Below, piece by piece: positions 45,707 to 64,000 of a stretch of 64,000 bases of DNA. Every line of letters starts with the position of its first letter. Position 1 is the stretch's first letter. The stretch spans positions 3,239,631-3,303,630 of the forward strand of contig NZ_CP119787.1 in the NCBI RefSeq assembly GCF_029338255.1. The letters run 5' to 3'. A program made the translations under genes and the position numbers. The notes beneath the pieces were generated by a model. That model saw nothing but the letters and a program-made list of their open reading frames with translations, ran no database searches and had not been told where the DNA came from. The stretch is from Haloarcula halobia. Lineage in GTDB: Archaea; Halobacteriota; Halobacteria; Halobacteriales; Haloarculaceae.

Positions 45707-45793
45707 ACCAGTAGCTCGTCCGCTCCCGGGAAAGGCCTACGCGTTTCGCAACGATTAAAACCGCAGCACTCGTCGGTCTAGTTGCTATCGCAC

Positions 45794-45866
45794 GGGCCGG
45801 TGGGGTAGCCTGGTATCCTTCGGCCTTCGGGTGGCCGTAACCGCGATTCGAATTCGCGCCGGCCCA
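45794..45866 (+). tRNA. tRNA-Pro (CGG anticodon)
   Basis: The 73-base cloverleaf has acceptor arms gggccgg/ccggccc with discriminator A. The anticodon stem is cggcc/ggccg with loop ttcgggt, giving anticodon CGG. The T arm is cgcga/tcgcg with loop ttcgaat. No intron is present and CCA is not encoded. The accessory region begins right behind it, a common integration target for archaeal mobile elements. Confidence 0.93.
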
Positions 45867-46175
45867 CTAAACCTTACGGCCTTTCAGGAGTCGAGGAAAA
45901 TCGCCAGATAGCGACGGGTTCAGGGGTTCGCTTCGCCGCATTGCGCTCCGAGGTTCACACGCACTCACGGCCACAGGCTACGCCGTCCAGCGATTATCTA
46001 GAGCCGCGACCACTACGCGTCCGAACAGCTACCACACTCCTCGCGCCCGAGCAACCGTGCGCGCCACAGCAACAGCGCTGCCCAGGGAGTAACAGCTGGT
46101 CTCTCGATGACCATCCTCTCAAAAAGACTCGCAACCTCAGTCGGAAATCGGTGTTAGCGACTGCTCACAGGAGAG
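45867..46175. other. Intergenic region behind tRNA-Pro, no integrase or gene seen
   Basis: This 309-base stretch leads from the tRNA to the broken HEPN gene. No frame resembles an integrase, and no copy of the tRNA 3' end (an att site) is visible to me within the window. GC falls from here onward. Confidence 0.4.
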
Positions 46176-46600
46176 TCATGACCAAGAAAAACCCCTATTA
46201 TGGGGAGTCTCTGATTCAAATTCGCTCAGCAAGCGAGAACATGATTCTAAGATGTCCGCGCTATCCCTGACGATTCGGAAGTATTCGTCGGAACGGAGGT
46301 CATGAACAAGGTCATTTCTAACCTGTCTCACATGTGCCATTTGCCCTACCAAGTCACCGGATAAGACCCCAAACCGCTGTAGCATCTGCTCTTTGTCTGG
46401 TTGGCTAAGGTTTTCAAGAAACTCAACAGTATTATTTGAGTCCTGATAGAACTCATCGACTAACTCTCGTTCGATGATTTCCACAGTATGATCTTCGATG
46501 ACAACCTGCGTTAATGTAAGAAAGGGCATCAGTCGGTTAGCGAGGTGGATCTGATATAGTTCTTCAACATAGTGTTCAGTAATTCCTTTTTCAACCCGAT

Positions 46601-47663
46601 GAGCGTGTCATAGAAACGTTCTCAGAGAAGGAAGCAGGGTGTTGGAACTGTGTCTACGAGCGCCAGCACCCTGCAAGACGTAGCTTCGGTAGACGACTTC
46701 TTGAATGTCGCGGCTACCGAGACAGTCCCGCTGTTCGAGCACCTTGAGTTCGAGTTTCTGCTGAATTACGACGTGTTCGCCCCCGCTTTGAGGGGGCGAA
46801 CACGAGTGCATCAGCCACCAGACCTCTTTTGCGGCTTTCTGCACTGCTATTACAAGGACATCTACGGAACGCGTCCGGTTGCACGAGAACTCCAACACGG
46901 CCTCGTCTGGTACTACTGCGGACTCGACAAACCTCCATCCAGAGACACGGTTGACCGCTTTCTCACCGACCTCGAACACGTCATCGACGATGTCTTCGAC
47001 AGGCTCGTCGAGCAGGCCGCCTGTCGGGGCCTGCTCGACTCGACGTACTCTATCGACTCAACGCACATTGAGGCGATTCAGTACAACGACGCGGCGTCAT
47101 GGAACTACGATCCAACGGCCGAAGATTACTACTACGGCTTCGGCTGTACGATTGTCTCAACCGGTCCAAAGATACCGATTGCAGCGGAGTTCACACAGAC
47201 CAAGCAAGCAGACCAGGAGACGGCGATGCGCGTCACGCGTAACGCGCTCGCCGTCGATACACCAATTTGGATGCTCGGAGACAGCGCCTACGACGTCCTC
47301 GACTGGCACGACCACCTGCTGGCCGCAGGGGTCGTGCCAATCACCCCATACAATCCGCGAAACACCGACGACCCGAAAGACATCGAGTACAGGGTCGAAG
47401 ACCGCATCGAGGAACACAGCCAGGACGTACAGCTGAAACAATCCCTCTTGGACGAGACGTACAACCACCGGACAGGAGTCGAACGGACCAACGACGCAGT
47501 CAAGGACTGCGGCCTCGGGCACGTCCGCGCCCGAGGCCGCGTCCACGCACGAACAGAAGTGTTCCTTGCACTGTGTCTCCGGCTCGTCGTTGCAATCACC
47601 AACTACGACCGAGGAAACGAACCGGGCTGTGAGAAGCTATGAGATGGATTCTATGACACGCTC
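46601..47663 (+). mobile_element. Complete IS5/IS4-superfamily insertion sequence, 1063 bp
   Basis: The ends are perfect 13-base inverted repeats, gagcgtgtcatag (46601-46613) and ctatgacacgctc (47651-47663). They are flanked by a 7-base target duplication acccgat (46594-46600 and 47664-47670). It contains one intact transposase gene. Intact ends, duplication and gene point to a recent, possibly still active, insertion. Confidence 0.92.
46650..47642 (+). CDS. DDE transposase of the insertion sequence
   Basis: The 330-residue transposase has the DDE triad of the IS5/IS4 group: Asp in YSIDSTHIEAI (about residue 135), Asp in MLGDSAYDVLDWH (about 208) and Glu in HRTGVERTNDAVKDCGLGH (about 285). 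The N-terminal helical part (FCGFLHCYYKDIYGTRPVAR) resembles DUF772-type IS5 N-domains. It starts at GTG 46650, 49 bases from the left end. The gene is full-length and uninterrupted. Confidence 0.9.
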   Translation: MSTSASTLQDVASVDDFLNVAATETVPLFEHLEFEFLLNYDVFAPALRGRTRVHQPPDLFCGFLHCYYKDIYGTRPVARELQHGLVWYYCGLDKPPSRDTVDRFLTDLEHVIDDVFDRLVEQAACRGLLDSTYSIDSTHIEAIQYNDAASWNYDPTAEDYYYGFGCTIVSTGPKIPIAAEFTQTKQADQETAMRVTRNALAVDTPIWMLGDSAYDVLDWHDHLLAAGVVPITPYNPRNTDDPKDIEYRVEDRIEEHSQDVQLKQSLLDETYNHRTGVERTNDAVKDCGLGHVRARGRVHARTEVFLALCLRLVVAITNYDRGNEPGCEKL

Positions 47664-48708
47664 ACCCGATCGTTGATAGCTCTCTCCAATTCAGGATCAG
47701 AAGGAGAGATGTCCTCATATCCAGAGATATATTCAATCAAAGTCTCTGAATTGATGATCCAGCGGAGGGTGGCGCGGGAGTCGAACACGATCCAGGGTTC
47801 GAAGCGGTATTTCTGGCTGAGCGTCCAGAGTTTCTGGAACGTGCTGAGATGGAGGTCCATGTTATGATGCCCAGTCATGACCTCGGCAATAATCGCGCGA
47901 GCACCCGGGAGGTGGGCACCGAGGTCAACATTGTACCCGCCGGGAAATGAGACGTAGGTGTTGATGTCTGCGTCCTTCGTGAGAGCGAGATGTAGCGCCG
48001 TGGTGCCGACGCCGACGCGGTGCGGGAGGAGTTCTAGCGAATCACCGGTCATTGCGGGGAGGTCAGAGTGGAGATGCAGCATTTTCTTGCCCTTCAGCGT
48101 CGGTGCCCAGGAGACTTGGCGGCGAAGGATACGTTTTGTCTGGAGGTGGGCATCGGTCAGTTCTGAGATATCGAACCAGGGGTAGTCGCCAAAGGCATTC
48201 TGGAGTTGCCGGTCGTGTTCCGTGAGCGAGGCGTGGAGCGGGTCAAGAGCGCTGGTGGGGATCGATCCGAGGAATTCGGTTGGTCGTGGGATTTTGTCGA
48301 GGATTAGGTGTGTCCCGTTCACGAACTCGCCGTTCCACAGACGGACCATCCGTTCAGCGCCTTCCTTGAGATCACCGCTCAGCGTGACACCTGGGCGTTT
48401 GTGTGCGGGAAGTTCCCGCGGATCGAGATCTGTGTTCGGCCCATCACTCGGCCGGCGTTTGAAAATCCCCTTGTAGTGGCCAGGGCTGATCCAGACTGCG
48501 GTCGCGGTGTCGCCCATCATGCTGTACATCGGGGTCAGCTGATCGAGGTCGTTGCCCCCGACGTTTCCTTTGTCGTACCAAAGGGGGTAGACTCGGGGAT
48601 CCGGTTCGACCGGTGTTGGATCGTAATCGACGATCAGCTGTACGTCGCCTTATCCGCTGGGTGGATGAGACGGAAATCGTGGTCGTCGTAGGGGTTGCCA
48701 GAGGGCAT

Positions 48709-49045
48709 GATTGGAGGTGGTTAGTTGATGGTCTCGTTGCCGGCTGCCTGCGGAGGACTGCATCGCTGTGTAGACAAGGCGTTGAGAAAAGGGTTAGACC
48801 CCGGTATTCGACCGTATTTGGGGCTCTATCCGTGTTTGAGAAGATGGAAACCGCCGGAAATAACGGGGAATTGCACCTCCGAGTTCGGAGGGGCGGGTGA
48901 GCCCGATACGTAGCTTTTCTTCGCTCACTTCCTCGGGCGAATTCTGTTTGATTCCGGTGCTATCCCTCGATTTCCATAGATACCGTGAAACGGCAAATGG
49001 CCAGCGTTTATACCGCTGTCAAAACTACAATTTGATACGATAGGG
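48709..49045 (+). promoter_or_regulatory. Intergenic region with a hairpin and the exonuclease promoter
   Basis: A short hairpin, cctccga-gt-tcggagg, sits at 48876-48891. A TATA-like gtttatac near 49005 lies about 35 bases before the ATG at 49046. No gene is seen. Confidence 0.35.
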
Positions 49046-49735
49046 ATGCTAGCAATAGACATTGAAACGGTACCAGCCGACCCCGATGCAAATGATACCG
49101 ATCCCGACTTCCTCAACAGCCGGGAGTTTAGGTTCCTGGGGGTCGGTCTCGGTGTCCGATCACGCGAAACAGACGGCCGCGAGATCGAGGTGCTCTTCCG
49201 CGAAGACATCGACGAGCACTCGGAAGTCCGCCTCCTCAAGCGCATCTGCGACTGGATTCAGCAGTACGACATCGACACCATCGTCACGTATAACGGGACG
49301 AGCTTCGACTTCCGACACCTCCTCGGTCGCGCTGAAATCCTGGCGGAGAAAACCAACGCTGAGCAGTTGCCTGCGACAGTCGCTAAGTCCTTATCGCTGC
49401 CGTCACATCGTGACCTCTTCCTTGAGTACCGGCGTCGTCACGATTCGTGGGCCTCGCTCGAAGAGGCACTCGACGAGTACGGACTCGACGTGCCAGACCC
49501 GGTGTACTGGGACGACGAGAAAGTCACAAACTCGCGGATCCCACAACTCGGTGCTGACTATCTCTGTGGCCGAGCCGGACTGTCCCCCGACGTCCCGGTT
49601 GACGAGCTCGAGGAAGTCCTCCGGGAGTACACGCGACGAGACATCGAACCCCTGTTCGACCTCGCCGGCGAGATGGAAATCGGGCGACTGCAACGCAGGT
49701 GGCAAGAGAAAGCCCTCGCCGGCGCCGAGTGGTAA
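49046..49735 (+). CDS. DEDD-type 3'-5' exonuclease (RNase H-like fold)
   Basis: The 229-residue protein shows ExoI MLAIDIETVPAD (Asp4, Glu6), ExoII YNGTSFDFRHLL (Asp about 93) and ExoIII-like REYTRRDIEPLFDLA (Asp about 206). These are the four acidic residues of DnaQ/PolB-type exonucleases. It resembles the stand-alone family B polymerase exonuclease-like and YprB-type proteins. No polymerase domain is attached. Its place in a nuclease-rich island suggests DNA processing or defence rather than replication. Confidence 0.75.
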   Translation: MLAIDIETVPADPDANDTDPDFLNSREFRFLGVGLGVRSRETDGREIEVLFREDIDEHSEVRLLKRICDWIQQYDIDTIVTYNGTSFDFRHLLGRAEILAEKTNAEQLPATVAKSLSLPSHRDLFLEYRRRHDSWASLEEALDEYGLDVPDPVYWDDEKVTNSRIPQLGADYLCGRAGLSPDVPVDELEEVLREYTRRDIEPLFDLAGEMEIGRLQRRWQEKALAGAEW

Positions 49736-49749
49736 AAGATAGAAAACCA

Positions 49750-49854
49750 ATGATCGCTGAACGTCGAGAACCTCGAGGAACACCGATGGCCAGCTCGGCC
49801 GTACCTCGCCTCGAAATCCAGCTACACGCACTCTCACCACCGGACAATGATTGA
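49750..49854 (+). CDS. Possible 34-residue leader peptide
   Basis: The short frame MIAERREPRGTPMASSAVPR ends with TGA overlapping the ATG of the next gene (49847). Translational coupling is the only support; composition is not distinctive. Confidence 0.22.
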   Translation: MIAERREPRGTPMASSAVPRLEIQLHALSPPDND

Positions 49855-50113
49855 GCTCATCGATCATGCCGGCGTCGTCATCGTGCACACGGTCGATCGC
49901 GCCGGTCGGGAAGCATGGTACACAGCGAAGCGACATCCGGCCCCGCCCAATGGTGGGCGGGTTGAGGACATCCTCATCGACATCGACGGCACGATCCCGC
50001 GGTATACGATAGAACAGCTCCGGGAGCGCGGCATCGGTGTCGTCGGTCCGCGAGCCGCCCGTCCACAGCGATATGCACCAGAATACCGGCACCAGCCGAC
50101 AGCTGAAGCGTAA
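49847..50113 (+). CDS. Small hypothetical protein
   Basis: The 88-residue product MIELIDHAGVVIVHTVDRAG looks like a small beta-rich domain (VEDILIDIDGTIPRYTIEQL). It has a plausible halophile composition but no family I know. It follows the exonuclease gene in the same direction. An opposing frame on the minus strand is less protein-like. Confidence 0.4.
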   Translation: MIELIDHAGVVIVHTVDRAGREAWYTAKRHPAPPNGGRVEDILIDIDGTIPRYTIEQLRERGIGVVGPRAARPQRYAPEYRHQPTAEA

Positions 50114-50260
50114 TGAGACTGGCAAGGAGAGCACGCGCGCCCCGTGTTCCGACGGGTCGCGGCCTCGGTGTGATCGCAGCGCCGAAGGGTCACTGCGAGT
50201 GTCATCGTCCCACTCAGCGTGACGCTACAGATGGGTGAATAGCGGTGACCCGTTCTGGAC

Positions 50261-51622
50261 TCAGATGACGCCTGTCGAAACAAGGATACCGACGATGGAA
50301 ACGATCAGTAGTAGAGCCGCACTGGCGGTGAGCGACTTGTTCTCCATCGCTTTCTGGTGGACCGGCATTGCGGCGTACTCGTCACGGAACGTTTCCAGGT
50401 TGTCGTCATCGTAGAAGTACTTCGTTTTCAGGGCGAAGCGTTCTGTGACGGCGCACCCAGTACAGACTGGGGTTTGTTCCAGCCGTTCGGTCTTAATGTG
50501 AGAGGGGCAGTTGATACTCCCGCAGTTCGCGCAATACGTATAAGTGGATGCTGAGTCATCGTCGCAGTGGACACACCGATGAATGCCGTCGTCGTCGGTA
50601 ACCCGTGACGGGCCCGCAGCGTAGTATTCGTAAGGGTAGGAGTACTGCTGGAGCTGGACGGACTGTCTGATATTCGGGAGATACACTGGCTCGATGGATT
50701 GCACTGAGATATCGGACTGGTTGGGTTCGCAGGTCTTGTCGTATGTGACGTTGTTGTCGCCGGTATAGGTGACCGTCGTTGTGTGATAGTCTTGGAGGCG
50801 TTCGATGGCCCACTCCTTATACTCGGTTTCAGTCTGTCCGAAGCGGCGAACCTCGATGTCGTCAAAGAGGTCACTGAATCGTTCTTCGTCGAGATCGATC
50901 GTTTGGCGAAGATTGCTGGTCACTAACTCTCCGATGTCAGTATCCAGGATTTCTGGCTGCTGACGCTCGGCCCGAACGACGAATGTATTCGTCTCGTTGA
51001 TTCGGTGGATGACGCCAACAGAGGTCTCGAAGACGGCGTTCGTCTGTGCGGTTATCGAGAGTACAGGTTCGAAGTCAGCTCGAGCAGTCGGCGTGGGGAT
51101 GTCGTCTGCGTCGATATTTTCGATGTCTTGGAATGCTTCGCGGACGGGAGCGGCAAGGTCGTTCGTCGGGTCGAACGGGCGGAGTGTTTCGTCACACAGG
51201 ATTTCGATGCGGCCGTTGTAGAGATCGAGTCCAACATCATCAGCGATGTCGCGGAGGTCGGTCCCGTCGATGAGTTCGATGGGGAAGGGGTCGTCGTTTT
51301 GCTCAAGTTCTGTTGCGTACTCTTGAGCAGGGTTCGTGAACCGCCCGGTGGTCACGACCATCCCTCGTTTCGGCCCGTCGTAGTCGTAGGTAGCGATGGC
51401 AGAGTGGAGTTTCTGGACGACAGGACGACCGACTGCATCGGTGTGTTTGCATTCAACGACGACAGCGCGACGGGTTCCGTCCACGACTTCTTCCATGACG
51501 AGGTCGCGTCCCTCGTCGGCTGTCTTGGCGGCTTGATGAACGTTCTCGTAGCCGAGGTTCCGGAACACATCTTCCATGAGGTCCTCGAATTCGAACCCGG
51601 AGAAGTCATCGAGGATCGCCAT
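50261..51622 (-). CDS. Mrr-like restriction endonuclease with zinc finger and membrane tail
   Basis: The 453-residue protein starts with the Mrr-cat domain. FEFEDLMEDVFRNLGYENVH is followed by the PD-(D/E)xK core: GRDLVMEE ... RRAVVVECKH (Asp about 49, Glu and Lys about 66-68) and KRGMVVTTGRFTNPAQEYA. A long middle domain of unknown type comes next. Then there is a four-Cys zinc region (HRCVHCDDD ... YCANCGSINCPSH ... CTGC) and a final hydrophobic helix (ASAALLLIVSIVGILV). Mrr nucleases cut foreign, often methylated, DNA. A membrane anchor on such an enzyme is unusual. It is transcribed alone. Confidence 0.8.
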   Translation of the reverse strand: MAILDDFSGFEFEDLMEDVFRNLGYENVHQAAKTADEGRDLVMEEVVDGTRRAVVVECKHTDAVGRPVVQKLHSAIATYDYDGPKRGMVVTTGRFTNPAQEYATELEQNDDPFPIELIDGTDLRDIADDVGLDLYNGRIEILCDETLRPFDPTNDLAAPVREAFQDIENIDADDIPTPTARADFEPVLSITAQTNAVFETSVGVIHRINETNTFVVRAERQQPEILDTDIGELVTSNLRQTIDLDEERFSDLFDDIEVRRFGQTETEYKEWAIERLQDYHTTTVTYTGDNNVTYDKTCEPNQSDISVQSIEPVYLPNIRQSVQLQQYSYPYEYYAAGPSRVTDDDGIHRCVHCDDDSASTYTYCANCGSINCPSHIKTERLEQTPVCTGCAVTERFALKTKYFYDDDNLETFRDEYAAMPVHQKAMENKSLTASAALLLIVSIVGILVSTGVI

Positions 51623-51801
51623 CAGTGTGAACGTTCCAGTTATGTTTGTCCTATTACTTGAAAATTTTCTGTCGCGTATCGTGTTGTATGCGCTTTGATC
51701 CTAAGGGTCGAAGAAGAGTACCCCAGATTCGAAGGGCGGAGCCGGTGAACGAGCAATTAATACGCTATATATAATATTAATTATCCATTCAGCGGCTATA
51801 T

Positions 51802-52596
51802 TTATTTCTCATCCGGTTCGAATTGACTCTCTTCTTCGGGAATATTCGCAAAGGAACTAGATTTGAACAATTCTCGCAAATCTGGATCTTTGCCTACTCT
51901 ATCAAGTATTACCAATTGATCTGATCTGAATACCCTGTCATTCGTTTGATCTCCGATCTGGTCTTTTGCTTCTACCCACATTCGACATCCAAACTCGCCG
52001 GTATCGTGCTTATGCCTGAGCCTCGAAATTAGGAAAATAATGTCATGATACATCGGGTTCTCTCCCTCTTGCTTCACCTGAACTTTCGGTTTTGCCTGGA
52101 ACTTAACTCGCCTCTGCTCAGCTCCGAGTGCATTGGTTCTATTGTAGCCAGGTGCAGCAGAATCGACTCTTTCCATATTTTCTTTCCCCACTGAAAATGT
52201 TGTATCGTCATCCTGCTTGTCAGGGAAAATTTCAGTACATAATCGGATATTAGTTAACTCAGAACGTGTGTAGTTAGAGAGCGTCAAAACAAGGAAATCA
52301 CCATCATAATCAACATCCTCTATTCGAATATCGCCCTGTAGCTCATACCGATGAAGTTTCCGTTGTTCGTCCAATATATTCTTTTGTTGAAGGTATAGGA
52401 TAACTAATCCAGCACTTAGTAATGTACCAAATGCCGTATCGAAGGCTGTTAGCCCTTCCATCAGAGAAATTGGCGCTTTGGATGGGGTCAAAGTGATTAT
52501 CCCGAATCCCAGTAAAAGATATATACCAAGACCGATACCCAAAAGAATCACAGCTATAATTAGCAAGAGCGAATTGAATCTTGAGGAGCCACTCAT
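51802..52596 (-). CDS. Two-helix membrane protein of unknown function
   Basis: The 264-residue protein begins MSGSSRFNSLLLIIAVILLG and has two membrane helices (about 8-30 and 45-70). A coil-like link (LQQKNILDEQRKLHRYELQG) and a beta-rich soluble domain follow. Layouts of two N-terminal helices plus a cytosolic domain occur in membrane-linked defence proteins, but I recognise no effector. The start at 52596 is preferred to the in-frame ATG at 52653. The gene is clearly more AT-rich than its neighbours, suggesting transfer. Confidence 0.5.
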   Translation of the reverse strand: MSGSSRFNSLLLIIAVILLGIGLGIYLLLGFGIITLTPSKAPISLMEGLTAFDTAFGTLLSAGLVILYLQQKNILDEQRKLHRYELQGDIRIEDVDYDGDFLVLTLSNYTRSELTNIRLCTEIFPDKQDDDTTFSVGKENMERVDSAAPGYNRTNALGAEQRRVKFQAKPKVQVKQEGENPMYHDIIFLISRLRHKHDTGEFGCRMWVEAKDQIGDQTNDRVFRSDQLVILDRVGKDPDLRELFKSSSFANIPEEESQFEPDEK

Positions 52597-52772
52597 AATC
52601 TGGATTTTTGCAGCTACCTTCAAATAAATGAGTAACCTGTACTGAACACTCACAGATGACCGCTATGGGGGTTGGGAGGCACTTCTATGACGCGCTGCGA
52701 AGGTCGCCAGTTTCGGACTCCCGGGAAGGTGTATCATCAACGCTACCGGGAATAGTGGGAGATCCCGTGGAA

Positions 52773-54575
52773 TTAGTTTGAGTGGTTAGTCACGCAGACA
52801 TCTAACCCTTGAACTTCGACTGGGCGGACGTCTGGCGCGTCCACGACTGCTTGGCCCTTGTCGAAGGTGACAATCTGGTCTTCGTAGTCAGCAGGGATGC
52901 GGATACGCTCGACTACCTCAGGTTGGAGACCGAGATAGATTCGGGTGTTCGTCTGTTTGAGGATTTCATCGTCGATGTCCTGCGGATTCTGCGTGACCAT
53001 GTAGAGGCCGAATTTGTCTTTCCGGCCGCGTTTCGCTGCCTGGCGGAAGTTCTGGACGAGATATTGCTCGCGGGGACGATCTGTGCTGGAGAGGTATTCG
53101 TGGGCCTCGTCGACGCAGAGGAGCAGCGGCGTTCCTTTGATTTGGGGATGTTCGACGCCGGTGTCGATCTTGTTCTCGACGATGTGGGTCATCAAGGCCA
53201 GGAGAACTAACTTCTCGGTTTCACCGCGAAGGTGGCCGGTCGGGACGACGGTTACCTGGCCGCGATTGAACATATCGTTCGTGTATTCGTCGAGACTGGT
53301 GGTTCCGTGGTCGAAGACACGGTCGTAGATGGGGCCAGTGACGCGGCGTTCGACCGCGGCGAGAATGTTGTCGTTATCGACGATCTGGTCACCGTTCAGA
53401 TCGAGCCAGGTCTCGAAGTCGTTGTACGTCGGCTCGTCGTCGCTGTCGTCGTCGAATCGACCGAAGTACGCGTTGAGGACGTTCCGAATCGCGTTGAACG
53501 TCGGGTCTTTCGGTCGTGACGAGAGCAGGAGTTGAGGGCGGTTTTCGACAACGGAGAAGGGGATACCGAAAGTGCGGGTGTCATCGAGTGTCGGCTGGCT
53601 ATTCGCTGTGACTGGTGCGAAGACTTGGAGATCGTCGTCCAGACCGCCAACGGCGACGCCCTTATCCTCAAGTTCTCGGGCCTTTTCCAGAGAGAGTTCC
53701 GGGTTGTCATCACGCATTTCGACGTATTCGTCCTCGGGATCGATGACGAACAGATTCAGATAGCGGTGACGGATGTCATCGTCAATGCCGAACGCTTCCT
53801 GCTCCTCGGGCGGGACTTCGATTGGGTATTGTTTCGAGACGGCGCACTGCCGGAGGATATTCTTCGAGAAATGCGTTTTCCCCTTCCCAGTGCTGCCCGC
53901 GACGAGGACGTGGCGGAAGATTGCGGGTTCGCCTTCGTCAGCGGTTCCGTCTGTTGAGTTCGGGTTCGATAGAAGGTACGTGAGCGGGTTCTCATCGTTG
54001 GGGACGAGGTCACCGCTAACGGCCATGTCGCCTATGTAGATGCCGTCACTGGGGATATTGAGGCCGACGCGGAGAACTTCTTCGTCCTCAATAAGATGGA
54101 CATCTTCTCCGGGTTTCGGCGGTCGATCGACGGTCTGTCTGGTGAGGGCATCTTCGACGCGGTCGTGCTCGACGATGGCGATCGGGTCGAGATGGGAGAC
54201 GTAGGCGAGGTTTTGTTCGCCGAAGTCACTGTAGCCGCCGCCATCGACCCAGTCATTGATTTCGGTGATCGGTCGGTATTCGAGGCGGTCAATCGCGGCG
54301 AGGAGGACTTCGTCTTCGTTCGGCTCGGTTGTCGCGTCAGGGTAGGGGATGCAGACGTAGTTGCCGACGCGGAGACCGTCGCGTTCGTGCTGGTCGATAT
54401 AGGCGATAATCTGCATTTCGCTCCGCCCGACGAACAACTGTGAGTCTTTGAGCGCAACGTGTCCAAGACTGTCGTCGCCGAGAACAGGGTCTGCCATCGC
54501 TTCGTCCTCAGGTTCGGCCGCAATACTGTTTTGGTCGCCGTACTTTGCTGCGATGTCGTCTGTTGAATCAGTCAT
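52773..54575 (-). CDS. herA: HerA-family DNA translocase/helicase
   Basis: The 600-residue ATPase has an N-terminal beta-barrel-like HAS region, Walker A GSTGKGKTHFSK (about residue 230), Walker B LLLCVDEAHEYL (about 490), and the HerA arginine region FRQAAKRGRKDKFGLYMVTQ with NPQDID. HerA forms a hexameric ring on DNA and drives resection together with NurA. Six bases separate it from nurA upstream, so it is the last gene of the mre11-rad50-nurA-herA operon. All ATPase motifs look intact. Confidence 0.88.
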   Translation of the reverse strand: MTDSTDDIAAKYGDQNSIAAEPEDEAMADPVLGDDSLGHVALKDSQLFVGRSEMQIIAYIDQHERDGLRVGNYVCIPYPDATTEPNEDEVLLAAIDRLEYRPITEINDWVDGGGYSDFGEQNLAYVSHLDPIAIVEHDRVEDALTRQTVDRPPKPGEDVHLIEDEEVLRVGLNIPSDGIYIGDMAVSGDLVPNDENPLTYLLSNPNSTDGTADEGEPAIFRHVLVAGSTGKGKTHFSKNILRQCAVSKQYPIEVPPEEQEAFGIDDDIRHRYLNLFVIDPEDEYVEMRDDNPELSLEKARELEDKGVAVGGLDDDLQVFAPVTANSQPTLDDTRTFGIPFSVVENRPQLLLSSRPKDPTFNAIRNVLNAYFGRFDDDSDDEPTYNDFETWLDLNGDQIVDNDNILAAVERRVTGPIYDRVFDHGTTSLDEYTNDMFNRGQVTVVPTGHLRGETEKLVLLALMTHIVENKIDTGVEHPQIKGTPLLLCVDEAHEYLSSTDRPREQYLVQNFRQAAKRGRKDKFGLYMVTQNPQDIDDEILKQTNTRIYLGLQPEVVERIRIPADYEDQIVTFDKGQAVVDAPDVRPVEVQGLDVCVTNHSN

Positions 54576-54581
54576 TGTGGA

Positions 54582-55868
54582 TCACTCCTGGTTGTTGAGG
54601 TCGTTATAGCCGCGGAGCTGATTGTAGGTGCGAACCGATGTCGCGTGTTGGAGTTCCCGCCGTAGCCGCTGTCGGTTCTCCCGGCTAATTGTGGCAGCTT
54701 CGTCTGCGGCTTCGATCGCAAAGGGAATGCTTCGAGTCGCGGCGATTTCAGCGAGAACTTTCTGTTGGAGTCGCTCACGGTCTGTTTCGTCTCGAACCAT
54801 CATGAGCGGGGCTTCGACGCGGACGACGGTGTTTTGAAGCGGGATGCGAGCGTAGAAGAACGCCGTCTGGTATTCGGCGGCATCACCGCGACGGAATTCG
54901 ATGCCGTCGAGACCTTCTAAGGGGACGAACGCGCTATCCGCCTGCGCGGGTGACATCTGGCGCTGGACGAGCCACGTCGTATAGCTGATGACAGCGCCGT
55001 CGTCACCGTACCAGTCGTCGGGATTGTACAGAGCTTCGCTGAAGAACAGGTTATCGTTCCCCCAGCGTAACGGCGTGTCTACCTCGTCTGGCGCTTTTGC
55101 CTCGATCGCGGAGACGACTTGGGTGCTGGTCGGGGATTTGACGATCCCGGCGACTGGGAGGTCGGCTTGGTCCTGGCCTTCGACGACGCGGAGGTAGTTC
55201 GTGACGATGTCGTCGATCATGTCCGGCCAGAAGTCGAGCGGTGTCTCTCGGGAGTCCGGGGTTTGTGCGAACATCGTCCAGAGCAACACTCGACTCGGGT
55301 ACAGCGGGCCGTCGATGAACAGTGGCCCGTTGATGTCGTCTAGGTGGCGGCGGGCGTGCCACCCCTCCGCGTACGTTCGTGCGATCCCGGTCACCCAGTC
55401 GGCGAGGTCACGCTGGCGAGACGAGATCGTTGGGAACCGGAATACGTCGGCGTCAACGTTGTCGTACTCCGCGCGGAGGTCATCGATGTCGAATTCCTCA
55501 TTGTCGAAGTAGACGACGGTCGTCAGGGTGCTTTCCTTGGCGAGGTCAGCACGGTCAGTCCGGCCACCGATCCCGAGTTTGGCGTTGGCAGCCCCGAGTA
55601 GGAGGCCGTTGCTGAATTGGAGCGGCTGAGTGGTACTCGCGTCAACGCCGTAGGTCACCGGCCACGGATCATCCCAATCTTGGACGTTGTCAACGAGTTC
55701 GTGGTTGATGGCTGGTTGTTCAAGTGCCTCAATGTCGCCTCCGGGGCGGGCAACGTATTCGAACAGATCAGCAGCGGGGCGTTCCTCTTCGTCGGCAGCG
55801 TCGTCAACACGACCATCGATGGAGCTGAAGACGTCCCGGAGCGCACCGAGTGTATTCGGATCAGTCAT
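54582..55868 (-). CDS. nurA: NurA-domain nuclease
   Basis: The 428-residue protein contains the NurA core: TYGVDASTTQPLQFSNGLLL with a catalytic Asp, INGPLFIDGPLYPSRVLLW with a second acidic site, then VAGIVKSPTSTQVV and FFYARIPLQNTVVRVEAP. NurA is a 5'-3' nuclease working inside the HerA ring. The start at 55868 overlaps the end of rad50 (ATGACTGA), showing coupling. The catalytic residues appear present, so NurA-HerA could work even if Rad50 is broken. Confidence 0.82.
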   Translation of the reverse strand: MTDPNTLGALRDVFSSIDGRVDDAADEEERPAADLFEYVARPGGDIEALEQPAINHELVDNVQDWDDPWPVTYGVDASTTQPLQFSNGLLLGAANAKLGIGGRTDRADLAKESTLTTVVYFDNEEFDIDDLRAEYDNVDADVFRFPTISSRQRDLADWVTGIARTYAEGWHARRHLDDINGPLFIDGPLYPSRVLLWTMFAQTPDSRETPLDFWPDMIDDIVTNYLRVVEGQDQADLPVAGIVKSPTSTQVVSAIEAKAPDEVDTPLRWGNDNLFFSEALYNPDDWYGDDGAVISYTTWLVQRQMSPAQADSAFVPLEGLDGIEFRRGDAAEYQTAFFYARIPLQNTVVRVEAPLMMVRDETDRERLQQKVLAEIAATRSIPFAIEAADEAATISRENRQRLRRELQHATSVRTYNQLRGYNDLNNQE

Positions 55869-58582
55869 CGTCTCCGGCGACGCCTTCTGTTCCGGACTTT
55901 CCGTGACTCGGCGTGACTGTACTCGCATCCTCGGTGGGATCCTTTTGGGCGTGGAGCGCAGCGTCCGCGTTCTGGATGAGCCGGTCGTTGTGGCTCACGA
56001 CGAGGATCTGTGGGACGTTCCATTCGGAGATTGCTTGGATGACGGAGTGGAGTTCGTCTACGTGGTCGTCGTCGAGGAAGCTTGTCGGTTCATCGAGGAT
56101 GAACGGTGGGAGACGGTCGCCCCCGGAGCTATCGCGTTTCGCCACAAGGCGGTAGACGCCGGCGCGTAGCGCGAGATTGACGACTGTGCTCTCGCCCCCG
56201 CTCGTGACTTCGGGCTTCATGTGGGCGCCATCGCTGGTCACGAGGCTGATTGTGTAATCTTGGTCGATGTGAACGCCGGCGTAGCTCTGGTTCTGGTACA
56301 GGTCGTTGAAGACTTCGTTCGTGTAGGCGTTCAGCAGTTCGACGTTCTCCTTGCGTAGCTGGGTTTTGACGTCCTCGTAGCCCGCGATGATGTCATTGAT
56401 ATCCTCGACGACGGTATCGCCCCATTCTTTCTGCTCGGTGAGTGTTTCGACGCGCTCCTCCTGCTGTTCGACCGTATTGAGCGCCGCATTCTTGTCCGCG
56501 CGTTCCTGGACGAGCGTTTCGTGTTCCTCTTCAGCGGTTTCTTTCTCCTCGGCAGCGGCTTCTCGGTATCCTTCGTACTCCTCGATGTCCGACTCCAAGT
56601 CCTCAACGTCGATGTCCGCCAGCTCGTCGTCTATCTCTTCGATCTCGTCTTCGAGGTCGTCGATGTCCTCGAGAGCTTGCGCCGCATTTCGCGGGCGTGT
56701 TCGATATCTTGCTCATATTGGTCGATGTCTCCCGCGAGGTCCTCGATCTTCTCGTATTTCTCGCAGGCTTCCTCGACGGGCTCTTTGATGCCCTGAAGCT
56801 CCTCGATCTGATTCTCGACCTCTTCCAGATCTCCCTCGAGCTCTTCGACGCTGTCCTGAGCGTCTGCTAGCTCTTCTCGGGCCGCTTCGAGTTCTTCTTT
56901 TGCCTCCTCGACTGCTGCCTCTTGGTCTTCAAGTTCACCCTCCAAGCGCTCGATTTCCTCTTGTATATCCTCTAAGTCATCCTCCAGGTCCTCAACGGCT
57001 TCTTGCTTTGCCAGCGCGTTGTTGACATCCTCTCGGAGGTCTGAGAGCGCGTCTCGTTGCTCACTCAGTCGTTCGCGTTTCTCGTGTAGGTCTTCGATGT
57101 CCGACTGCGTGTCAGTGAGCGCCTGCTCGACGCTCTGGCCGTCGGCTGTGTGTCCACCCTCATGTTCAGCGCCACAAACCGGGCAGATGCCATCGTCGCC
57201 GAGGTCGCTCAGTTGTTCTTCTTTAGTCTGGAGGCGCCCAATCTTGTTCCCGAGTTCTTCGCGCTCGTCGGCCAAATCGTCACGTGCGTCTGGGATTTCG
57301 TCGTCACGAAGCGTTTCCAACGCAGCATCCTCTGGGACGGGGAGGTCAGCAGTTCGTGCTCGAACCTCGTCAACTGCGGCTTCAGCTTCGTCCTCGGCTT
57401 CTGCAATCTCTGACTCCAGCCGTTCTTTCTCCTCACGCTCTGCTTCCAGATCCTCTTCGAGCTGCTCGAATTCGCCTTCGACATCGTCCAAGTCTTCTTC
57501 GCGCTCGTCTTTCTCACCCTCCAGACGCTCAACCTCCTGCTTCGCGTTTCGGAGGTCGGCATCGATGCCTGCTTTTTCTTCCTGCTCGTCGCTCAGCTCT
57601 GATTCGATGTCTTCGAGCGCCGCTTCGGCCGCCTCAACTGAAGACAAGTCGTATGTATCAATGGCATTGTCGAGTTCTGAGATTCGCTCACGTGCCTCCG
57701 TCTGTTGCTGTTCGGCCGTCTCTTTGTTCTCCTTCGCTTCTTCCAAGTCTTCGCCGAGGGACTCGTATTCGCCGCGTTTCTCTTCCAGCTCGTCTGCCAG
57801 TTCTTCGCGGTCGTCCTTCAGGTCGTCAACTGTCTCGAGTTGCTCGCGCCAGTCCTCTAACTGCTCATCGATCTCCTCAATGTCGTCTTCATACCCCTCA
57901 ATCTCGGCTGCCTTCTCGTCGATTTGCTCGCTTAGTTCAGCAATCTCCGCTTGGAGGGTGTCTTTATCAGGAAGGTCATCGAGCTGGTCACGCGCCTCTG
58001 CAAGGCGGTTCTTCGCCTCGTCACGCTTGTTTTTCGCCTCCCTGCGCGCCTTGACTGCGCGGTCAATCAAGTCATCGACGCGACTCAGACCGAGGAGGCC
58101 GTCAAGAATCTCCTTCCGGGTGTCTTCGTCAGCGTGAACGAGACGCGCAATGTCACCCTGCTGGACGTAGACGCTGCTGACGAACGACGACGCATCCATC
58201 CCGAGAAGATCTTGGCTAATTGTGTTCTCGACCTTCCGAACACCGGATACTGGTTCGGTTAGTGCTTCCGACTGGAGTTCACAGGAATCCGTGCTGCCAT
58301 CGGCGTCGATGACCCACTCGACGGTGTAGTCCTGCCCACCGGCTTCGAACGTGAGCTCAATGCGGCCCTGATCTTCGTTATGGCGGACGAAGTCAGCGAG
58401 ATTGAAGTCCGCCCCAATCTCGTGCTTGCCGCTCTGGGGGAAGAGTCCGCCGAACACGCTCCGGAAAATCGTCGATTTCCCGGCGCCGTTCTTCCCGTAA
58501 ATGAGCGTCTCGCCGTCCTCGAAGTCGATCGTTTCGTGCGTGTGCTCTGGATGTTCTCGATGGTGAGTTCGCGCAGGAGCAT
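55861..58582 (-). pseudogene. rad50: Rad50-like SMC ATPase gene with two single-base frameshifts
   Basis: Restored, the protein is about 907 residues. Start MLLRELTIENIQS shifts frame near 58545 and continues HETIDFEDGETLIYGKNGAG (Walker A). A long coiled coil follows with zinc hook CPVC (DGICPVCGAEHEGG). A second shift falls at the T-run 56687-56689. The C-lobe then has signature TSGGESTVVNLALR, Walker B PFILDEPTSFLDDD and VSHNDRL. The interval is 2722 bases; adding two missing bases gives a multiple of three. Rad50 pairs with Mre11 at DNA ends. As written it would yield only fragments; homopolymer sequencing errors are a serious alternative. Confidence 0.85.
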
Positions 58583-59781
58583 TACGCATCACCCTCCGTT
58601 TGCTGGCCGTCCTCGATGTCGTCGAACTGTGCTTCGCGCTCTTCCTCGAGAATCTCTGCGACATCATTCCGGACGTGGGATTCCTTGGTTGCGTCCGTCG
58701 CCCGAACGACTTCCTCGATGCGTGAACTCGTTGGTTGGATGTCTAACTCGCTAATCGTCTCGTCGATGAGTGATTGGATATCCGCGACGTCAGTTTCCCC
58801 ACCTTCGAAGTCGAGATCGACGCTTGCGCGGCGTTTGTCTTGGACGTGGACGACGCCAGCGCCCCGAGAGTCAACCAGCTCGTAGACATCTCGCTGGGAA
58901 ACCGTCGTGTCGTCCCCGTGTAGTTCGACGACGACAAGCTGCTCGTCGAGGACCTCGTCGGGGCTGAGCGCTTCGTCAAGGCGTTGCTCGACGAGTCCGA
59001 GGCCATCCTGTTCGCCGAATTGCACCGGGACTTGGAGGAAGTCACGTGGCGCTTCACCCGCCGGAGTATCGAGTGTACGTCGCCGGATCTCGAGGTCACC
59101 GGATTCGACTTCGAGCATCAGGGCACCCCGTGGCGCTGATTCCTTTGTGGAACAGCGCTCGGTCGAGCCGGGATAGAACGCCTGGACGCCGTCTACTGTT
59201 TCCTCTGTGTAGCCGTGATAGTCGCCGAGTGCGATCGCTGTCGGAGTGATATACAGTCGGTCGATGACCTCTTGGAGTTCGTAGTTCGCCTGTTGCGGCG
59301 GGACAAGTTCCTCGAAGAGGTGATGCATACAGACGATAGTCACGTCGGCTGAGGCCGGTGGCTCCTCCAACTTGAACTCGTAGGTATTCCAGGATGGCGC
59401 CCGGATGGCGTCGATACCGTAGAGGGCGACGTCGTCGTTCACGAGGATTGGTGTCTCGTCGAGATGGTGAACGAGGTCAAAACGGTCGATGAGGTCGAGC
59501 CACTGCTCGTCTAATTTGCGTTCGTGGTTTCCGACGATTCCGTAGAAGGGGATGCCGGCGTCGTTCAGTTTGGCGAGCGTGTCGAGACACCGGTTCACAT
59601 CTGGGACGCCTGGCTGTGGGTCATCGAATAAGTCGCCCGTGTGGATGACGGCATCTACCTGTTCACCGATGGCGAGGTCGATCGCTGCGTCGAAAGCGTC
59701 AGCGAAGTCCTCTCGACGGGTGTCATCGCCGTATTGGCGTTTCCCGAGGTGCGTGTCGCTAACGTGGAGGATACGAGTCAT
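58582..59781 (-). CDS. mre11: Mre11-like nuclease
   Basis: The 399-residue protein has the metallophosphoesterase motifs in order: ILHVSDTHLGKRQ, VIHTGDLFDD, GIVGNHERKL, VCMHHLFEEL and ALGDYHGYT. It then has a capping domain and an acidic tail that may hold the Rad50-binding helices. It would be a 3'-5' exo/endonuclease at double-strand ends. Its TAA overlaps the rad50 ATG (TAATG). It is the promoter-proximal gene of the four-gene operon. The start at 59781 (MTRILHVSDTH) is chosen for the domain boundary. Confidence 0.9.
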   Translation of the reverse strand: MTRILHVSDTHLGKRQYGDDTRREDFADAFDAAIDLAIGEQVDAVIHTGDLFDDPQPGVPDVNRCLDTLAKLNDAGIPFYGIVGNHERKLDEQWLDLIDRFDLVHHLDETPILVNDDVALYGIDAIRAPSWNTYEFKLEEPPASADVTIVCMHHLFEELVPPQQANYELQEVIDRLYITPTAIALGDYHGYTEETVDGVQAFYPGSTERCSTKESAPRGALMLEVESGDLEIRRRTLDTPAGEAPRDFLQVPVQFGEQDGLGLVEQRLDEALSPDEVLDEQLVVVELHGDDTTVSQRDVYELVDSRGAGVVHVQDKRRASVDLDFEGGETDVADIQSLIDETISELDIQPTSSRIEEVVRATDATKESHVRNDVAEILEEEREAQFDDIEDGQQTEGDA

Positions 59782-60000
59782 GACTCTTGAGTGGAATAAC
59801 AAGTAGTAGGGTCATAATGCTGGTCCAATCGGAGTGAAAGTGATTAGTATCATCAATTGGCTTCTTACTCGGCCGGTGGGGCAGGCTCAGAACCCGGAGG
59901 AAGATGTCTCCGGAGTGATGCAGAGCCACTCCTGGAACCGGTCTGAGTTTCCGATGACGATTGAACGGCCACGACGCCAAACGCAGATGTCCTCTCAGAA

Positions 60001-60471
60001 CTAGCTTCCATCGAATTCCTTCTTGGCTTCTTCTACCGCTGTCGTGATTCGGTCGGTCAACTCCTCTTCCCACTCTGTTCCGATACTTTGATCGTAGAGA
60101 CGAATCAGTCGGAAGAATCCGAGAAGCATTAGCTCAGATTCCGTTTCGTCCAGAAACTCGTCTTGACTTTGGGAAGCTAACACCTCCAGTAAATTCAAAT
60201 CCTCCACTGCCCCGACCATCCCGAAATCAACGAGAGCCGCTGCAATGTCCCGCTCTAAATGAGTATGGCCTGGGTGATCCTCATCAATTCCATCTTCTAA
60301 TACCTCGCTTAGGAACTCTATAGACCGACCACTCAGGAATCCAGTTCGGTAGGTTGTCGTCCTCGGCGGTACGCTATCGCCCTCTGAATCATCTGTTAGT
60401 GGTTCTCCACACTGACCGCAGTAGTAGTGGGCCTCTTCAGTTTCGTTGCCACAGTTCGTGCAGTACGGCAT
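60001..60471 (-). CDS. Zinc-ribbon protein with helical C-terminal domain
   Basis: The 156-residue protein opens with a zinc ribbon MPYCTNCGNETEEAHYYCGQ continuing CGEP, i.e. two CxxC pairs. A Ser/Thr-rich linker and an all-helical domain (about 50-150) follow, unrecognised. It lies upstream of mre11 in the same direction but 219 bases away, so co-transcription is uncertain. The gap 59782-60000 has no supported gene. The function is unknown. Confidence 0.6.
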   Translation of the reverse strand: MPYCTNCGNETEEAHYYCGQCGEPLTDDSEGDSVPPRTTTYRTGFLSGRSIEFLSEVLEDGIDEDHPGHTHLERDIAAALVDFGMVGAVEDLNLLEVLASQSQDEFLDETESELMLLGFFRLIRLYDQSIGTEWEEELTDRITTAVEEAKKEFDGS

Positions 60472-60620
60472 ATCTGGATATAGGATGATTCAGACAATGA
60501 TGGTTATCTCGCAGAAGGGGAATAGCGTCAATAGAGGGTCGTGGTGACTGAACCGAACAGTGAGGACCAATACACCAGGCTGCCTGAGCTCGTCCCTTGA
60601 GTGTGGAACCTATTGCTCCC

Positions 60621-60630
60621 AGATTTATGC
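60621..60630 (+). promoter_or_regulatory. TATA-like box for the gene at 60653
   Basis: The sequence agatttatgc lies about 27 bases before the ATG, the leaderless spacing. Confidence 0.35.
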
Positions 60631-60652
60631 AGCTGTCTCCGAATTATGAGCT

Positions 60653-61402
60653 ATGAGTGGCGGGATTCCGTATGAGACAACGCTCACGATGCAGTCATAT
60701 GTGCAGATGCGCGACAAAGCTGAACTTGATTTTTTGGATGTGTTCACTCCGTCAACACGCTTAGAACGGGAACTTGGTTGGGACATGGAGATTCGGAATT
60801 TGAAGGGGGTTGTATTTCAGTTCAAGCGGCCGAAACTCTCGAAGGATGGGACGCGGCGGTTTTCTATACGTTACTCCAATCAAAATCCGCCACGCCAACT
60901 CGCTACTGTCAAAAACTACGCCGTAAAGTACGGGGAAGACATTGCCTATTATGCGCTGCCGCTTGTGACAGAGCATGACGAGTTAGAGGCGACTCTTCTC
61001 CGCACAGCCTTCGTGAAGGCGCTTGCAATACCCGAGTACACCTCCGTTATCCATATCCCAAAACAGTATTGTCAGGACGGGAGTCGGAATTCGAACGAAT
61101 CGATTACAGCTTATTGCAGTTACCCGTGGGATACGGACACTCGCTGGAAAGAATCGATTGCACCTTCAGATGTTTTCGGCTGGGAGGACCTCTACGAACG
61201 TATCGAACGATGTGACGTCGGGTTCAAAATCCGCTATCATAACGAATCACAGAGAGAAAGGTATCACGACGATCATCGATACCTTCCGCACAACGACGAA
61301 GAGCACTGGACTGACTATAGTACTGAGGAACTTTTCGGACTTGCCCAAGAGAGTGCGCCGTACATTACACGGTTTGGGTCAAGTGAGGACGTATTTGGGT
61401 AG
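60653..61402 (+). CDS. Unrecognised island protein, possible PD-(D/E)xK-like core
   Basis: The 249-residue protein has no membrane segment. The early stretch RLERELGWDMEIRNLKGVVF followed by QFKRPKL contains Glu, Asp and a QxK placed as in some PD-(D/E)xK nucleases, which is suggestive but far from proof. The C-terminal half is rich in His and Tyr (YHNESQRERYHDDHRY). It lies 151 bases before the sacsin-like ATPase and runs the same way. A short TATA-led leader supports the start. I do not know its family. Confidence 0.55.
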   Translation: MSGGIPYETTLTMQSYVQMRDKAELDFLDVFTPSTRLERELGWDMEIRNLKGVVFQFKRPKLSKDGTRRFSIRYSNQNPPRQLATVKNYAVKYGEDIAYYALPLVTEHDELEATLLRTAFVKALAIPEYTSVIHIPKQYCQDGSRNSNESITAYCSYPWDTDTRWKESIAPSDVFGWEDLYERIERCDVGFKIRYHNESQRERYHDDHRYLPHNDEEHWTDYSTEELFGLAQESAPYITRFGSSEDVFG

Positions 61403-61520
61403 CAAATCTTTGATTGTTTGGTCGGGTGAGAGATCGATAGCTAGTGATCTCACCTCTAGCTAATCCAATTCACGCCGTCCGGTGTTTCATAGGCCGTGGA
61501 TCCCACACGATGACCCATTA

Positions 61521-61550
61521 ACATTTAATCATAGCCGATTCTTGAATCGG
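61521..61550 (+). promoter_or_regulatory. TATA-like box and perfect palindrome before the sacsin-like gene
   Basis: TATA-like acatttaatc (61521-61530) is followed by the perfect inverted repeat ccgattc-tt-gaatcgg (61535-61550), ending 3 bases before the ATG at 61554. It covers the likely transcription start and is positioned for repression. Confidence 0.5.
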
Positions 61551-61553
61551 GCT

Positions 61554-64000
61554 ATGGATTCACAGGCTGATAGAAGCCAATTTTCTGACGTACCTCCATC
61601 CTCTGAGCGCGACGCGGAGCAACTGATAGAGGAAATACGCGGATATCGGCAGGCTCAGCGTACGGCGACACCCGACGAGGAAGTTGCGAAGTTCCAACGG
61701 ATGCAGGAAAGGATTTTGGAGAGTTTAGACGACGCCTCTCAGGTCATCCCCGAACTGCTACAAAATGCAGACGACGTGGGTGGAGACTGTACAGAGGCTA
61801 CTCTACAGCTCACAGATGATGCATTGGTCGTTACCAACCACGGTGAGCGAATGACTGAAGCCGAAATCGCTGCGCTCGGGGAGTTCACAAGAAGCACCAA
61901 GCACGATCTTTCTTACATCGGCCATTTCGGTATCGGCTTCAAGACCGTTTTCAGTGTAACCGACAGTCCACGCATAGAAACCGGATACACGAGCTTCAAA
62001 TACGACAAGTCGGATTCGGAGCTGCCGATTTCAGATTCAGGCGAGTACGTAGATGGTACGCGGATACGGCTTCCATTCGCTGACGACTTATCAGAGACGC
62101 GTTGGGAAACGCTCAGAAGCAAACTGGAATCGATAGACCGACTTCTGCCATTCCTGAATAATCTGGAATCCATTCGTGTTGAGGTTGATGGGGAAACCAG
62201 GATCTACGAACGTATTGAGACGGGAGGTAATACCCGCACTATTCAAGAACGAGTCCCGGAGGACAATTCCGTTCGTACCGTTGCCCGATATCGACTCTTC
62301 TCGGAATCATTAACGACCGATTCTGAGGTTTTTGAGATGTTGGCAGACGAACGAGAGTTCAACGCCGCAGATCTTGAGGAACGAAACGTAGAATTGGAGG
62401 TCACAGTCGCCATTCCGGTTTCCGATGAGGGTGCCCCAGTGTCACACCAAGATAGTCGGCTCTTCTGTTATTTCCCTGCCAGCAATGATACCCTTCTCCC
62501 GTTCGATGTTCAGGCTGATTTCCTATTGAAGTCTAATCGAGAAGAGATTCGTCCGGGACATCCGTTGAACGAACGGTTCCTCTCAGTAGCAGGGGGACTC
62601 GTTGAAACGGCAATCTCTGAATTCAAGGCTGATGATATTGCCCCTGAGGCATTGCTGGAACTGGTCCCGGACCTTGCAGAAGACCGGCCTTCCTATCTCG
62701 ACCCGCTCCTAAAGCGAACCAGAGAATCTGTCTCAAGACAGGAAATCGTTCCTGTTGCATCTGGAGATGTCTACCGACCGGAAGACGTAGTGATCCTTCC
62801 AGAAGAGTTGCGCCCGCTTCTTCCGCTCGGTGAGTTTGCACAAGCGTATTCTGACGCTGAGGTCCACCCGGAAGAGGATCTTGAAGACCGATATTACGAA
62901 CGCTTAGAGGTGCTGGACAGGACTCAATCGCTCTCGATGGCGGAAACGCTCGAGGAGCTTTCGGATATGGATCTCTTGCAGAGCCTCGAAGTGTCCGACA
63001 TCGTTGAGCTCTTGGCCGCGGTCGAGAGGTATCTGGATGGTCTTAATTCGTATAGAGAGGAGGAAAAAGCGGAGATCGAGCGGACAATAGCCGCTTTGGA
63101 ATCGCTGCCAGTATTTTCATTCCAAGGACGGACCGAGTTGGAGGGGCGACATACGCTGACCGAAGCAGGAGATACTATATATCGGCCAGCCCGACAGGAT
63201 GAATCGGTTTACGAAGCGTTCTATGACGAGTTAGACCTGTTGAGTGGCGATTTGGTTGCAGAGCTGCGTTCTCAAACCATCTCAGACACAACGACAGGAC
63301 GGGTTCAGGACCTGCTTGCGGATCGATTGGGTATTGAGGAACTCACTCATCGAGATATCGTTCGAGACGTCATCAACGAAGCGTTTTCGAGCCCCGGAGA
63401 GCTTCCCGATGAGACGTTAGATGATTACCTCGAGTACGTCCGTGACCATGCTCGAAGACATCTTGACGCTTCTGAGATCAGGCTACGAGCGAACGATGGC
63501 ACGTATGTAGAGCCTGAATCACTCTATCTCCCAACCGCGTATAATGAAGGCCGCTACCGCTCAACTCTTCTCTTCAGTACTCTATCTGACAAAAAGGCTG
63601 TTAGTGAATCCTACCTTGAGCGAGTCTCCGAGGAAACAGAAACGGACACGGAGAGTTGGCGAACGTTCTTCGTTGATCTTGGAGTTCAGAACTATATTCC
63701 GGTTTCCAAAGACGCCGACCAGTGTACGAAAGAGACATTCCAGTCGGCCGCCGAGATTCGTGAATTCCTGACCGAACACGACGATGAAGGAACTGATGTC
63801 CGGAAAGACAAAGATACGGTTCCGTATGGTGGACGGGGCTGTTCTTGGATGCGTTCGACGGATGCTCGTCATGGACTCGTCGATTGGGCCTTTTCGAGTT
63901 CGTTCGAGAAACGGTTCCAGGAAGTGGTCAAGGAGAACCCGGACTTAGGGGCTGAATTCGCTAGGATGCTTGATGCGAATTGGGAAGAGGTCTACCAAGA
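61554..64000 (+). CDS. Large sacsin-like protein with N-terminal GHKL/Hsp90-type ATPase (partial)
   Basis: The frame is open from ATG 61554 to the window edge (815 residues shown). The N-terminal ATPase has the Bergerat elements. The N box is VIPELLQNADDVGGD (Asn about 69), then a G1-like ALVVTNHGERMTEAEI and the G2 loop STKHDLSYIGHFGIGFKTVF, as in sacsin-type ATPases. The rest is helical and strand-mixed without motifs I know. Very large proteins of this kind, often ending in DUF3883 or nuclease domains, occur in prokaryotic defence islands. The C-terminal effector lies outside the window, so no system name can be given. Confidence 0.8.
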   Translation, partial: MDSQADRSQFSDVPPSSERDAEQLIEEIRGYRQAQRTATPDEEVAKFQRMQERILESLDDASQVIPELLQNADDVGGDCTEATLQLTDDALVVTNHGERMTEAEIAALGEFTRSTKHDLSYIGHFGIGFKTVFSVTDSPRIETGYTSFKYDKSDSELPISDSGEYVDGTRIRLPFADDLSETRWETLRSKLESIDRLLPFLNNLESIRVEVDGETRIYERIETGGNTRTIQERVPEDNSVRTVARYRLFSESLTTDSEVFEMLADEREFNAADLEERNVELEVTVAIPVSDEGAPVSHQDSRLFCYFPASNDTLLPFDVQADFLLKSNREEIRPGHPLNERFLSVAGGLVETAISEFKADDIAPEALLELVPDLAEDRPSYLDPLLKRTRESVSRQEIVPVASGDVYRPEDVVILPEELRPLLPLGEFAQAYSDAEVHPEEDLEDRYYERLEVLDRTQSLSMAETLEELSDMDLLQSLEVSDIVELLAAVERYLDGLNSYREEEKAEIERTIAALESLPVFSFQGRTELEGRHTLTEAGDTIYRPARQDESVYEAFYDELDLLSGDLVAELRSQTISDTTTGRVQDLLADRLGIEELTHRDIVRDVINEAFSSPGELPDETLDDYLEYVRDHARRHLDASEIRLRANDGTYVEPESLYLPTAYNEGRYRSTLLFSTLSDKKAVSESYLERVSEETETDTESWRTFFVDLGVQNYIPVSKDADQCTKETFQSAAEIREFLTEHDDEGTDVRKDKDTVPYGGRGCSWMRSTDARHGLVDWAFSSSFEKRFQEVVKENPDLGAEFARMLDANWEEVYQ

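Follow-up and report, generated by a model that had tools for sequence, protein, structure and literature searches.

A horizontally acquired mre11-rad50-nurA-herA operon in a haloarchaeal genomic island, a likely defence module

The window, a stretch of 64,000 nucleotides of Haloarcula halobia DNA (G000:C1:3239631-3303630), contains the genes mre11, rad50, nurA and herA at positions 52773-59781, all on the minus strand (operon op1). The mre11 gene (58582-59781) encodes a protein of 399 aa which matches Metallophos (1.5e-14) and retains all of the motifs SDTH, GDLF, GNHE, MHH and GDYH. The product of rad50 (55861-58582) comprises about 910 aa with matches to AAA_23 (1.2e-20) and SMC_N, and shows Walker A (GKNGAGKS), the zinc hook (CPVC), the signature (SGGE), Walker B (LDEP) and the H-loop (SH). 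The nurA gene (54582-55928) encodes 448 aa from its longest start, with the invariant residues D96, D206 and K264, and herA (52773-54575) encodes 600 aa with Walker A GSTGKGKT and Walker B VDEAH; active-site residues were thus kept in all four proteins. NurA scored 20.9 bits against Pfam NurA, just below the cut-off of 21, and HerA reached 30.7 bits for HerA_C and 27.7 bits for DUF87, both above the cut-off. When the predicted NurA structure (mean pLDDT 81) was compared with the PDB, the 12 best matches (E 1e-3 or better) were all NurA, HerA-NurA or the RNase H-like TM1739. The genes mre11 and rad50 overlap by one base (58582), the end of rad50 (55861) lies within the longest nurA frame, and nurA and herA are 6 bases apart. 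The sequence-only reading had described four genes that overlap or lie within 6 bases of each other, and this was confirmed: the four families of the archaeal mre11-rad50-nurA-herA resection cluster stand on one strand, and the same order and strand were seen in other genomes, in 28 complete operons, most of them with 4-base overlaps, indicating that the arrangement is not due to chance.

In the window copy, rad50 is not a single open frame. This copy is frame-shifted twice, by 1-base deletions at about 58543 and 56673, both at AGCT-type sites. Contig C1 begins with 69,598 bases that correspond, at 99.83% identity, to the 69,605 bases at its end. Two identical Mre11 loci were matched, but two op1 copies per genome were rejected in favour of an untrimmed circular overlap of the contig ends. 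Positions 45420-64000 of the window lie in this overlap zone (loci L006-L009), and frame shifts there need comparison with the other end. The second reading of the operon, from the other contig end, showed errors of its own, which lie in herA and close to the rad50 end, but neither of the two window deletions. Differences between the two readings fell into 80 clusters; AGCT was close by in 43 of them (background 3%) and a CCWGG-like site in a further 29, a pattern that probably stems from errors of long-read basecallers where bases are modified. Because both are absent from the other reading, the two rad50 deletions are basecalling errors. In the closest relative, rad50 is one intact frame of 906 aa.

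Selection acts on all four genes, with dN/dS against the nearest relative of 0.16 for mre11, 0.16 for rad50, 0.12 for nurA and 0.08 for herA. The frame-shifted rad50 of the window copy would fit a non-functional insertion in decay, in which damage to the genes accounts for their diverged look, but this reading is already contradicted by the position of the shifts at AGCT sites, by their absence from the second reading and by dN/dS values of 0.08-0.16 against an intact relative. This explanation is therefore very improbable, and op1 was rejected as a pseudogene. Judged from alignment columns, the Mre11 metal-binding, Rad50 ATPase and HerA Walker motifs as well as NurA D96, D206 and K264 were conserved across about 25 diverse operons. 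One operon branch (L076, L078, L079, L080, L081), found mostly beside Argonaute, showed a Rad50 without the CxxC zinc hook; the hook position reads WPLDGG in L076 and L079 and WPIDGG in L081, and the H-loop histidine is also missing in part of this branch.

The accessory island proposed by the sequence-only reading was found as a region of low GC (about 0.49-0.60, compared with 0.63-0.70 in most flanking DNA), which extends from tRNA-Pro (cgg; 45794-45867, plus strand) to a tyrosine integrase just past the window end (L007:891-2039). A tRNA attachment-site repeat bounding the island was searched for and rejected, as no repeat was found there. On the left side lies an IS1182/IS5-type transposase (46650-47642, plus strand). 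An Mrr-type restriction endonuclease with a C-terminal transmembrane part (50261-51622, minus strand; Pfam Mrr_cat 3.7e-26, also PADLOC) is an island neighbour outside the conserved operon, and a membrane-anchored protein with no family assigned (51802-52653, minus strand) is encoded between it and herA. Upstream of mre11 follow a small zinc-ribbon protein (60001-60471, minus strand) and the start of a Tiamat (TmtA)-like sacsin/HSP90-type ATPase gene (61482-64000, plus strand; PADLOC TmtA 8e-62), which runs out of the window; this gene was read in L006:16049-19314 and its start in the window was derived from the overlap offset.

The same genome also encodes core sets elsewhere, as expected from the earlier suggestion that op1 stands outside a core repair context. 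The search for a second mre11-rad50 pair located the core pair from C1:1205879 onward, and core nurA and herA were found at C1:2973218 and 2975752 (span C1:2973218-2977452). Against the haloarchaeal equivalog models of NCBIfam, core Mre11 and core Rad50 scored 655 and 1344 bits, whereas the op1 proteins reached 272 bits (cut-off 550) and about 225 bits (cut-off 1000), so that the description 'diverged' was right. Compared with their core counterparts in this genome, op1 Mre11 shows 35% and op1 HerA 36% identity. Trees were run for NurA and Mre11, and in both op1 stands on a branch apart from the core copies. The NurA tree contains one copy labelled core (L164) that is an operon copy, and the operon group is thus broader than its label. 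Core sets are near-universal and op1 is sporadic; op1 is not the core, vertically inherited set of its genome. Had it been the sole Mre11-Rad50, inherited vertically in the genus, the idea of an acquired module would have failed; a core pair is present, and the 3 carriers among 16 genomes belong to three lineages.

A further, distantly related operon (op2; C1:2570760-2578635, L016) was detected in the same genome, encoding Mre11 (505 aa), Rad50 (903 aa), NurA (421 aa), a 235-aa protein and HerA (547 aa). It adjoins a GmrSD-type restriction gene. Present in 31 of 292 haloarchaeal genomes, with 94-96% DNA identity between genera, op2 is itself mobile. In some genomes it lies directly beside Argonaute (L231, L232), and PLD, DUF4143, KTSC and GmrSD genes also occur next to it.

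After mapping of the search matches, op1 was counted in 34 of the 292 haloarchaeal genomes, among them genomes of Halorarius, Halorhabdus, Halovenus, Haloquadratum, Natrinema, Halorubrum and Haloferax. In the genus of the window, the three carriers (3/16) each fall on a different NurA branch. The nearest relative, a Haloarculaceae MAG (NurA 80%), is homologous over window positions 52775-59797 exactly, and no homology to the window was found outside this interval. At 99.99-100% identity, more than 17 kb are common to two genomes that belong to different families. On the NurA tree, the family label switches 12 times along operon branches and 6 times along core branches, the two groups having different row numbers. 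Consequently op1 is an accessory, horizontally acquired set, as the earlier reading had supposed, with the patchy distribution and transfer typical of defence systems in general. In the Natribaculum breve plasmid copy (L067), two ORFs seem to have been inserted into herA, separating nurA from the remainder of the gene.

Four haloarchaeal plasmids carry op1 and the window island has its own integrase, both of which would fit an operon that serves its carrier elements, e.g. by end processing in plasmid replication, integration or recombination, and acts neither on viruses nor in chromosomal repair. However, searches of 50,697 phage records and of 2.9 million viral contigs gave no match to op1, and conservation is confined to the operon, with no integrase or replication gene consistently attached to it, which makes a service of this kind unlikely. 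A viral origin of op1 was rejected on the same searches.

To determine whether op1 relatives co-occur with defence genes, 147 neighbouring ORFs were compared with an equal number of control ORFs (147), picked at random positions on the contigs of op1-carrying genomes. With PADLOC at 1e-15, 168 families were matched among the neighbours and 40 among the controls, counts that are not fully independent, as related operons share neighbours, and part of the signal derives from the transposon protein TnpB (Cas12f-like matches). The most frequent PADLOC members were the DUF4143 type (6), Argonaute (5) and OLD/Gabija-like proteins (4), while no family occurred more than once in the controls. Pfam agreed, with AAA, OLD-type, DUF4143, helicase and HamA families among the neighbours and metabolic families among the controls. 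In a scan for named families, Argonaute, PLD, KTSC, DUF2797 and DUF4143 genes were located beside several distinct operon branches, compared with a single PLD match in 40 control regions. The neighbourhoods of op1 relatives are thus richer in defence genes than matched controls, although some copies lie among metabolic genes. No fifth gene common to all op1 relatives was found; OLD plus KTSC, PLD, Argonaute plus DUF2797, DUF4143 and MBL genes are each associated with a subset of the operons. In one branch, a 70-aa KTSC protein and an OLD-type TOPRIM ATPase follow herA, and the pair recurs elsewhere (L052, L053, L055, L060, L061, L099, L122); it may be a linked effector. Argonaute was above the cut-off in 34 genomes, 10 of which also carry op1 (4 expected, p 0.002), and in 7 of these 10 it lies within 20 kb of op1.

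Core Mre11 was present in 281 of the 292 genomes and missing in 11. Either op1 or op2 was found in 10 of the 11 genomes without core Mre11 and in 53 of the 281 with it (Fisher p about 1e-6, a test that counts few independent events, since a single genus accounts for 8 of the 11). All 8 of these genomes, from genus g34 (Haloquadratum-like), carry op1 or op2. Since 10 of 11 core-less genomes hold one of the two operons, op1 and op2 can probably stand in for core end processing. The earlier proposal of an acquired defence module rather than the repair system of the cell was thus supported in part: op1 is acquired and separate from the core sets, its action in defence is presumed, and it can probably also process DNA ends of the cell itself.

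The main rival to defence is accordingly a repair role, in which op1 would be a mobile spare set for double-strand-break resection that spreads by its benefit under DNA damage and is able to replace the core, its position in islands reflecting only where acquired genes land. The enrichment in core-less genomes, the retention of all active sites and the description of thermophile homologues as repair enzymes (PMC7776575) are in agreement with such a role. Against it, the core-less genomes represent few independent events, nearly all carriers already possess core sets, and the same Argonaute, PLD and KTSC families lie beside unrelated op1 and op2 lineages, which random landing would not predict. 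A spare repair set is thus possible, but on balance doubtful as the main explanation; repair and defence may also both be true, as for RecBCD.

Several known systems share parts of op1. The mre11-rad50-nurA-herA clusters of thermophilic archaea (Constantinesco 2002/2004, cited in PMC7776575) comprise the same four families in one operon; these are, however, the single core set of the cell, whereas op1, in a mesophilic halophile, is additional to the core sets, patchy in distribution and transferred, and op2 of the same genome has the additional 235-aa gene. Lamassu (LmuA/LmuB) and other Rad50-like defence ATPases have in common with op1 a Rad50-type ATPase with zinc hook as DNA sensor, and PADLOC LmuB matched op1 Rad50 at 2.7e-38. 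Lamassu has a fused or separate effector and no true Mre11, NurA or HerA, while op1 keeps the canonical nuclease partner, and no LmuA-like gene was detected in it with Pfam and PADLOC profiles. In the antiphage systems HerA-Sir2 and HerA-DUF4297, a HerA ATPase is likewise paired with a nuclease or effector. Matches of op1 HerA to the antiphage HerA profiles of PADLOC and NCBIfam were weak and restricted to the C-terminal ATPase part (40 bits, cut-off 800); its partner is NurA plus Mre11-Rad50, and searches with Pfam, PADLOC and NCBIfam gave neither a Sir2 or DUF4297 partner nor an equivalog HerA score. RecBCD and AddAB are comparable in function, combining a translocase with a nuclease that works from DNA ends and possibly serving both repair and invader destruction; they have no sequence relation to op1, for which RecBCD-like action is presumed.

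Reviews state that haloarchaea lack HerA and NurA (PMC7776575, PMC12977600). The genome survey corrects this statement: NurA homologues were found in 287 of 292 haloarchaeal genomes, and also in the Haloferax volcanii control. Core NurA, usually adjoined by HerA (e.g. L091), is nearly universal in haloarchaea. A non-exhaustive search of the open-licence literature gave no earlier account of the operon as a mobile system or a defence system of haloarchaea.

The best explanation for the gene order, intact active sites, selection, mobility, defence neighbourhoods and co-occurrence with loss of core Mre11 is that op1 is a mobile, RecBCD-like DNA-end machine directed mainly against invading DNA, a reading to which we give about an even chance. 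Judged from its sequence and surroundings, op1 is likely to be a defence module. It would be a complete, self-contained machine that locates and degrades DNA ends and moves between haloarchaea. By homology, Mre11-Rad50 would hold and clip the DNA end, and the HerA ring would act as a DNA pump that feeds the duplex into NurA for cutting. Linear or broken invading DNA would be destroyed in the manner of RecBCD, including ends made by the neighbouring cutters Mrr, Argonaute and OLD or PLD nucleases, and chromosomal ends might also be processed when the core set is missing. HerA-NurA of T. kodakarensis degrades both strands, and its authors suggested an antiviral role (PMC12977600). In E. coli, pAgo guides arise partly at RecBCD-processed ends, although RecBCD is not required (PMC10269773).

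An observation in Halorubrum lacusprofundi also counts against defence. In this species, the Argonaute Hlac_2785 and the ADP-ribosylglycohydrolase Hlac_2793 bracket seven genes, the same number as in L051, where transposase-like, herA, nurA, rad50, mre11, PLD and HTH genes (tiny ORFs left out) lie between the same two. On this correspondence, the four operon genes would be Hlac_2787-2790, and the 'predicted SMC' ACAM34UNSW_01796 is probably the rad50 of an op1 relative. Its expression rises about two-fold late in infection, part of which may be due to copy number (PMC10544981). Judged by this gene order, strain ACAM34_UNSW keeps a close op1 relative beside its Argonaute, yet it stays sensitive to the virus HRTV-DL1, by which it is lysed (PMC10544981). 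Particles of HRTV-DL1 contain an Mre11-like protein (ORF4) (PMC10544981), which could relate to host end-processing systems.

A wider proposal, which we put forward tentatively and with less confidence than the defence reading of op1, is that two independent mobile mre11-rad50-nurA-herA families form a RecBCD-like antiviral degradation machine that works with neighbouring cutters, supplies or consumes the DNA ends of Argonaute, and took over the role of core Mre11-Rad50 in some lineages. Two unrelated families of an operon known from core repair in thermophiles are here carried as mobile cargo within defence islands, and in some lineages op1 or op2 is the only Mre11-Rad50. It thereby becomes testable whether the combination of HerA-NurA and Mre11-Rad50 serves repair, immunity or both, a question that the biochemistry of T. 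kodakarensis has recently reopened (PMC12977600). For haloarchaeal Argonautes, op1 may offer a partner for the end processing that RecBCD performs in bacteria.
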